Positions 59,892 to 63,904 of a DNA stretch of 64,000 nt are shown in pieces; position 1 is the stretch's first letter, and each line of letters begins with the position of its first letter. Both the position numbers and the translations under genes were made by a program. The notes under the pieces are model-generated. The model saw nothing but the letters and a program-made list of their open reading frames with translations, made no database searches and had not been told where the DNA came from. Source of the DNA: Actinomycetota bacterium (lineage in GTDB: Bacteria; Actinomycetota; Acidimicrobiia; Acidimicrobiales; Palsa-688); NCBI GenBank assembly GCA_021323695.1, contig JAJPKN010000038.1:62001-126000 (forward strand), in the 5' to 3' direction.

Positions 59892-59918
59892 CGGCCCATC
59901 CCTGACGGCCAGGAGGCT

Positions 59919-59946
59919 TTCACCCCCCGGTCACCTGGCGTTCACC
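59919..59946 (+). promoter_or_regulatory. PHO-box-like array: three 11-bp-spaced direct repeats
   Basis: TTCACC at 59919, GTCACC at 59930 and TTCACC at 59941 are spaced exactly 11 bp apart, with the last extended as GTTCACCTG. This matches the direct-repeat architecture of the actinobacterial PhoP PHO box (repeats of about GTTCACC every 11 bp). It lies between fabZ and the OmpR-type regulator gene. Confidence 0.6.
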
Positions 59947-60061
59947 TGTGCGTGGCCGTCCGGTCAGCTGGGCCCCCGACACTTGGGCCATCAACACCGA
60001 CCACCCCGCCTACCGACCATTTCGCCTGCGCCCGGCCCCGGCGGTCACCACCCGGCCCACG

Positions 60062-60742
60062 GTGGGGGCGACCGTGCTGGTCGTCGGCGAGGACGGCCTC
60101 AAGGGCGTGGCCCAGGACCTCGAAGAAGCCGGCTTCCAGGTCGTGGCCGCCAGGCAGGCAGCGTCGGCCCTGGCCGCGCTGGAGCGGGACGGGGCAGACG
60201 TAGCGGTCGTGGACGTGGGCTTCGAGGGCGACGGGCTGTCGTTCTGCAAGGCACTGTGGTCCGCCCACCCAGGGTTCCCGGTCCTGGTCGTAGGGCCGGG
60301 CGACGAGGACCAGGTGGCCAGGGCACTGGCCACCGGTGCCGACGACTACCTGGTCGTGCCCCTCCGGCCGGCCGAGCTGGTGGCCCGGGTGCGAGCCGTC
60401 CTGCGCCGGGCACCGGCCAGCGCTGCCCCACCCCGGTCCGGCACGCTCGTAGTCGGCGACGTCCGCCTGGACCCTGACCGCCACGAGGTGACGCTCCGGG
60501 GCTCCCCGGTCCACCTCCCCCTGCGCGAGTTCCAGCTCCTCCGCCTCCTCATGGAGAACGCCGGCATCGTCCTCACCCGGGCCACCCTGCTGTCCCGCCT
60601 GTGGGGCCCGTCCGCGCCGGACGACAACACCAGCGTGGAGGTCCATGTCCGGCGCCTGCGAGCCAAGCTGGAAGACGACCCCGCCCACCCCCGCCGGATC
60701 ATAACGGTCAGGGGGGTCGGCTACCGTTACCAGGCCCGCTAG
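60062..60742 (+). CDS. OmpR-family response regulator with atypical receiver domain
   Basis: The 226-residue regulator has a receiver domain with acidic pocket VLVVGEDGLKG, phospho-acceptor Asp51 in DVAVVDVGFEGDGLS, and the usual GADDYL block. The switch Thr/Ser is Gly (VLVVGPG) and the invariant Lys before Pro is Val (DDYLVVPL), so phosphorylation control is probably lost or altered. The C-terminal winged helix is normal (LPLREFQLLRLLMENAGIVLTRATLL, then NTSVEVHVRRLRAKLED and ITVRGVGYRY). No histidine kinase is adjacent. I chose the GTG at 60062. A frame from GTG 59948 would start inside the PHO-box-like repeats. Those repeats suggest autoregulation or membership of a Pho regulon. Confidence 0.85.
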   Translation: MGATVLVVGEDGLKGVAQDLEEAGFQVVAARQAASALAALERDGADVAVVDVGFEGDGLSFCKALWSAHPGFPVLVVGPGDEDQVARALATGADDYLVVPLRPAELVARVRAVLRRAPASAAPPRSGTLVVGDVRLDPDRHEVTLRGSPVHLPLREFQLLRLLMENAGIVLTRATLLSRLWGPSAPDDNTSVEVHVRRLRAKLEDDPAHPRRIITVRGVGYRYQAR

Positions 60743-63838: not shown

Positions 63839-63889
63839 GTTCACCCGGCTCGAGCCCGTACGTCCGCTCCCGTTCACCGCCCGTTCAAC
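63839..63889 (+). promoter_or_regulatory. second PHO-box-like array near the right edge
   Basis: GTTCACC at 63839, GTTCACC at 63872 and GTTCAAC at 63883 fall on one 11-bp register (33 and 11 bp apart). The last two directly cover the -35 position of the TATGGT hexamer at 63899. This is the geometry of PhoP-activated promoters. The gene it would serve begins beyond the window; 63905-64000 holds no gene that I can see. Confidence 0.6.
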
Positions 63890-63898
63890 TGGCCCCCC

Positions 63899-63904
63899 TA
63901 TGGT
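63899..63904 (+). promoter_or_regulatory. -10 element linked to the right-edge PHO-box-like array
   Basis: TATGGT starts 9 bp after the last PHO-like repeat, so the repeats overlap the -35 region. The downstream gene is outside the window. Confidence 0.45.

Follow-up and report, generated by a model that had tools for sequence, protein, structure and literature searches.

The locus described here raises the question of how a response regulator that has a degenerate receiver and no neighbouring kinase could be switched on, and on which genes it would act. The gene lies in a 64,000-nucleotide stretch of an actinomycetotal contig (hereafter the window), behind a set of short direct repeats. From the letters alone, a sequence-only reading had suggested that the regulator may be Pho-regulated or may be a phosphorylation-independent factor recognising the repeats.

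The repeat array and its conservation

The three repeats pointed out in that reading, TTCACC (59919-59924), GTCACC (59930-59935) and TTCACC (59941-59946), do start at exact 11-bp spacing in the window sequence. Two further units, 4 and 5, are additional to this triplet, and the whole array comprises five in-phase units (59918-59968) followed by a putative promoter element.

59918..59924, + strand: PHO-type repeat unit 1, TTTCACC; present in 8/8 orthologues
59929..59935, + strand: repeat unit 2, GGTCACC; based on position, alignment and a search with the GTTCACC core
59940..59946, + strand: repeat unit 3, GTTCACC, a perfect literature core; supported by the same evidence as unit 2
59951..59957, + strand: repeat unit 4, degenerate, CGTGGCC; weakly conserved at its phase
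59962..59968, + strand: repeat unit 5, GGTCAGC, 22 bp on from unit 3 and in phase with it; its GTCA is the same in 8/8 orthologues
59978..59983, + strand: putative -10 element GACACT, separated from unit 5 by 9 nt; unchanged in 8/8 orthologues

The host genome was scanned by pattern searches. A genome-wide scan for 11-bp repeats, proposed in the sequence-only reading, left the triplet unique: KTCACC-N5-KTCACC-N5-KTCACC has one match in the 3.2-Mb genome, and the reversed-pattern control has none. We also searched for the published PHO core of S. coelicolor, GTTCACC (PMC4415409), in three copies at 11-bp phase with at most three mismatches. The sole match in the window was 59918-59946 (two mismatches; none in 100 shuffles), and in the whole host genome the site upstream of the orphan regulator was again the single match. 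With a weight matrix trained without the window, the orphan array scores 34.7 bits, and the top score in 3 Mb of Markov background was 17.4 for the version of the matrix that includes the window.

The conservation of the array was followed in eight full-length orthologues (that of the window and seven others), which are 65-70% identical and all come from a single bacterial family; their sources are metagenome bins labelled Acidimicrobiaceae, Acidimicrobiales or 'Actinomycetes' (named collection). Lack of conservation in relatives would have spoken against the earlier reading, but the array is kept in phase in all eight, with the GTCA of the fifth unit 22 bp past the third and GACACT 9 nt further on. 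On average the majority base is found in 7.65 of the 8 sequences in the array core versus about 4 of 8 in the flanks, and the sequences flanking the array vary at random among the eight orthologues. The shuffles, the whole-genome uniqueness and the conservation rule out a chance repeat, and the orphan array is the best candidate for a three-repeat phosphate-starvation operator in the host genome. The array is also intact before the G003 copy, of which the gene reads in three frames (L044, G003:C6), reflecting either assembly frameshifts or a broken gene. Partial orphan copies were seen at contig ends in G015 and G028.

The same box at phosphate genes

Two properties of a PHO box are found in this organism, namely 11-nt direct repeat units with a GTTCACC-like core at the orphan array, and presence of such arrays before its phosphate-uptake genes, since the weight matrix derived from the orphan arrays detected like arrays before its own pstS and pstB. 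The pstS array is in the window.

63860..63892, + strand: second PHO array of the window, with GTTCAAC as its last unit; based on the weight matrix and promoter geometry

This array precedes pstS, the ATG of which lies 14 bp past the window end, and after its last unit come 9 nt and then a -10-like TATGGT (63899-63904). In relatives, including those without the orphan, weight-matrix arrays were found before pstS, pstB and senX3. Triplet arrays in relatives also occur upstream of genes for a PAP2 protein, for a Pit-type transporter and for an MFS protein that, among NCBIfam models, fits one for a phosphate:H+ symporter best, with a score under the cut-off of that model. Over the 14 family genomes the GTTCACC triplet search gave 35 matches versus four with the reversed control; some matches in relatives have no recognisable gene behind them, and one precedes an enoyl-CoA hydratase.

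At all three promoters, those of the orphan, pstB and pstS, 9 nt lie between the last hexamer and the -10-like element. The geometry of hexamer, 9 nt and (T/G)ANNNT also occurs at the pstB promoters of nine genomes and at the host's own pstS, the -10-like element being TANNNT at the pst promoters versus GACACT at the orphan. In PhoB-type promoters the activator repeats replace the -35 element, and the spacing seen here would be as expected of such an arrangement.

Two other sets of matches were set aside. Arrays near phoU were considered as phoU promoters, but most of them face away from that gene and, in several genomes, toward the MFS gene. The two-unit match GTTCACACAGAGTTCAC, conserved across genera, was rejected as a PHO site; it sits in an unrelated leader. 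Different genera share a conserved leader in which a TATGACACGATAG-like stretch precedes GTTCACACAGAGTTCACA, with one base different in G001; it is not an obvious Pho site.

Loci of the GTTCACACAGAGTTCACA leader: G000:C51:2453 (L133), G001:C144:275 (L139), G018:C139:70690 (L141), G022:C61:97254 (L140)

The orphan regulator and its receiver

60074..60742, + strand: orphan regulator of 222 aa, pseudo-receiver and OmpR-type winged helix; alternative start GTG 60062
60212..60214, + strand: conserved phospho-Asp codon (Asp47 from the 60074 start); based on orthologue and RegX3 alignments
60356..60358, + strand: codon at the invariant-Lys position, Val here and Leu in other orthologues; based on alignments
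60629..60673, + strand: recognition helix region TSVEVHVRRLRAKLE, in which the His, Arg and Arg common to RegX3 are kept

The start codon is probably GTG 60074, a GTG being present at this position in seven of the eight orthologues. The first in-frame GTG, 59948, was rejected as the start; translation would then begin within the array, and in several orthologues stops interrupt the upstream frame. Pfam recognises a receiver (46 bits) and Trans_reg_C (93 bits). An AlphaFold2 model (pLDDT 84.8, pTM 0.65) has complete receiver and winged-helix topology, and structure comparison confirmed the two-domain OmpR-type fold, which does not discriminate function.

The sequence-only reading held that the receiver keeps the phospho-Asp without the switch Thr and the invariant Lys, and this is borne out; the acid pocket is lost in the family as well. 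The phospho-Asp is retained in all eight orthologues, and the Lys and the acid pair are gone in all eight. In the window copy the active-site Thr is lost and its region has a one-residue deletion; in this copy only, a Glu-Asp shifted by one residue remains, where the alignment is ambiguous and the acid-pocket call uncertain. Judged from the alignments, four of the five receiver active-site residues are lost in the orphan family. The orphan thus departs from RegX3/PhoP, in which the five are conserved, and falls among pseudo-receivers, which lack at least one of the five and keep the receiver fold. Weak phosphorylation might still be possible because of the retained Asp and the residual Glu-Asp of the window copy. 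A Leu is found two places past the lost Lys in seven of the eight orphans; Leu two residues after the Lys is reported to bias receivers (CheY) to active forms (PMC12632262).

Both domains of the orphan are under purifying selection (pN/pS 0.2-0.5). Invariant among the orthologues are the beta5-alpha5 Asp-Asp-Tyr and the Arg of the dimer face, together with the His, Arg and Arg of the recognition helix. At conserved spots this helix differs from that of RegX3 by Asp to Glu, Thr to Ser and Lys to Arg, and RegX3 has a different transactivation loop. Given these substitutions and the divergent loop, the orphan's own DNA specificity may be shifted relative to RegX3.

Relationship to RegX3

The best solved sequence relative of the orphan is RegX3 of M. 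tuberculosis. Its DNA-binding domain is closest to those of RegX3/PhoP, with 60% identity to the RegX3 of the host and 45% to the next-best paralogue; its receiver is 32% identical to the same RegX3, no closer than to other paralogues. The comparison with PhoP, RegX3 and GlnR that the earlier reading had advised places the orphans as a 100/100 clade inside the RegX3 group, and a GlnR-type regulator was rejected on this tree and on the lack of a match to the GlnR domain (Pfam PF21695) at E 0.001. The orphan does not reach the NCBIfam equivalog cut-offs for MtrA (147.5 of 300) or PhoB (139.8 of 296.2), and the host has another regulator that groups with MtrA in the tree. These sequence relationships are best explained if the orphan is a clade-specific diverged duplicate of RegX3 (PhoP of Streptomyces). 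A tree-based date for the duplication was abandoned, as clades joining the orphans with the family RegX3 were not rejected (AU p 0.30, 0.33).

Gene neighbourhood and linkage to pst

Upstream of the orphan lie fabI, fabG and fabZ, and downstream a pabB-aminotransferase fusion. The absence of an adjacent kinase was noted before and holds: no kinase gene (senX3/phoR), as would adjoin a RegX3/PhoP regulator, adjoins the orphan, and the closest HisKA of the contig, about 20.8 kb off, forms a pair with a different regulator. A genuine senX3-regX3 pair is present in the host at G000:C58, behind a histidine-phosphatase-family gene. The earlier reading would have been undermined by a genuine pair with a different box; several relatives' pairs carry the same box, so this objection falls away.

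The order after the orphan in the host is pabBC, a GHMP kinase gene, pstS, transposase remnants and pstB-pstC-pstA, so that the pst genes lie 3 to 11 kb away with pabBC, the kinase gene and the transposase remnants between. In relatives the orphan stands directly before pstB-pstC-pstA, with pstB as the next gene in G004, G010, G017, G018 and G022; in G001 one gene separates the orphan from pstS-pstB-pstC. The split of the host pst cluster between pstS and pstB (L104:5714-10802, G000:C74, outside the window; unsplit in G001) holds a 1140-aa protein that no Pfam model matches, together with transposase remnants (ISL3, Mutator). Downstream of pstA (L104:14244-15554, L047:7726-8943) is a protein that, by eye, resembles the N-terminal part of KdpD, and the host copy adjoins a KdpB-like gene, also judged by eye.

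In the six relatives without the orphan that have a readable pst region, senX3-regX3 adjoins pst; in nine orphan-bearing genomes it is located away from pst. A PHO array precedes senX3 in 5/10 relatives without the orphan versus 0/9 genomes with it, several of the genomes being incomplete; the background rate of the two-unit match counted here is about 1.2e-5 per base. This contrast is suggestive and phylogenetically non-independent. In the RegX3 tree the genomes with the orphan group together as a single clade (100/99), which includes one incomplete genome where the orphan was not seen, and the contrast therefore probably reflects one event.

Proposed mechanism and alternatives

The proposal that the regulator is Pho-regulated gains strong sequence support from the conserved array, the promoter geometry common with pstS and pstB, the pst linkage and the arrays at relatives' phosphate-transport genes. 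That it is a phosphorylation-independent factor recognising the array is compatible with the sequence, because the orphan retains its DNA-reading helix and dimer face while the phosphorylation site is dismantled. We consider it fairly probable that both hold: RegX3~P would drive the orphan as a member of the Pho regulon, and the orphan protein would act without phosphorylation on PHO boxes, those of pst included. Under phosphate limitation the intact SenX3 of the host would phosphorylate RegX3, and RegX3~P would bind the five-unit array at 59918-59968 and start transcription from the inferred GACACT -10, with the orphan protein being made mainly in starved cells. Its receiver would be incapable of normal phosphotransfer chemistry. 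Most likely it would dimerise, or pair with RegX3, without phosphorylation, because it keeps the alpha4-beta5-alpha5 dimer face as well as a DNA-reading helix like that of RegX3. It would then act on PHO boxes, above all at the pst genes to which it is linked and perhaps also on its own array, with either an activating (feed-forward) or a competing (brake) effect. The Pho response would thus have a second layer that is blind to the kinase and is switched through synthesis of the orphan. We infer RegX3~P control, phosphorylation-independence and PHO-box binding from sequence features.

Other regulators of 11-bp repeats, such as the orphan itself or MtrA, could read the array. If the orphan were the main reader, it would be a self-contained, kinase-independent autoregulator and no target of RegX3. 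Its RegX3-type recognition helix would permit this, and the orphan array is the sole three-unit site (at most three mismatches) in the host genome, G001 and G004. However, like arrays stand before pst and senX3 in orphan-less relatives, which makes the box independent of the orphan, and the host keeps an intact RegX3; we regard such autoregulation as unlikely. Reading by MtrA, unrelated to phosphate, seems very improbable. MtrA likewise uses GTCAC-type repeats and the host does have a regulator grouping with it, but such arrays are seen repeatedly at phosphate-symporter-like genes and at Pit, pstS, pstB and senX3.

A somewhat better case, still on the doubtful side, can be made for a Pho-induced orphan that pairs with RegX3 as a heterodimer or competitor and mainly damps or retunes RegX3~P. 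Dimer-face residues are common to both proteins, the transactivation loop has diverged, and there are precedents in WhiI, which pairs with BldM, and in the pairing proposed for CmrT (PMC12632262); the sequence is, however, equally compatible with a homodimer. The degenerate receiver and the frameshifts in the G003 assembly could also be taken as signs of a decaying, functionless duplicate, but the pN/pS values in both domains and the promoter array kept across genera leave this very little likelihood.

As a tentative extension of the favoured mechanism, RegX3~P-driven synthesis of a kinase-blind orphan, an ancestral PHO-driven positive feedback on senX3-regX3 may have been lost in the clade and handed to this RegX3 duplicate beside pst. 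With such rewiring, reception (by RegX3, not PHO-controlled) and amplification (by the orphan, controlled by synthesis) would be split between two paralogues. The evolutionary route suggested is that the duplicate lost its phosphorylation site, kept DNA reading and took over the feedback loop.

Comparison with known systems

RegX3 paralogues, PHO boxes and pseudo-receivers are all known singly; a literature search covering few of the subscription papers turned up no earlier description of a pseudo-receiver of the RegX3/PhoP type that is placed under a PHO box and next to pst. How pseudo-receiver regulators are switched on and off is an open problem according to a 2025 review (PMC12632262). In the present case the sequence shows the signal and the operator as well as the likely targets and the phosphorylatable paralogue, which would make control by synthesis directly testable in a well-understood pathway.

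Like RegX3 of Mycobacterium (PDB 2oqr) and PhoP of Streptomyces, the orphan has the OmpR-type domain order, a place in the RegX3 clade, a DNA-binding domain closest to RegX3 (48% to 2oqr) and a promoter box of the 11-bp GTTCACC type. Unlike them, it is without the acid pocket, the Thr, the Lys and a neighbouring kinase gene, and it coexists with a genuine senX3-regX3. GlnR and ChxR are atypical OmpR/PhoB regulators with phosphorylation-independent pseudo-receiver dimers, the Asp of GlnR mattering for dimer formation (PMC12632262). The orphan resembles them in its pseudo-receiver and in the phosphorylation-independent dimer predicted for it, but groups with RegX3, does not match the Pfam GlnR N-terminal domain and has a different operator.

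The same review provides precedents for control by synthesis (CmrT) and for heterodimers (WhiI with BldM). CmrT of the Clostridioides difficile CmrRST system is a pseudo-receiver regulator for which control by synthesis level through a normal two-component system has been proposed (PMC12632262), and the orphan is likewise a pseudo-receiver regulator with proposed control by synthesis. CmrT lies in the same operon as its system, whereas the orphan stands away from senX3-regX3, is linked to pst and is a RegX3 paralogue that has diverged. Its array agrees with the actinobacterial PHO box in the 11-nt repeats, the GTTCACC core, the several units per operator and the occurrence before pst; it differs from the usual PHO box in being a five-unit operator with a degenerate fourth unit, and in preceding a pseudo-receiver paralogue of the protein presumed to bind the box.
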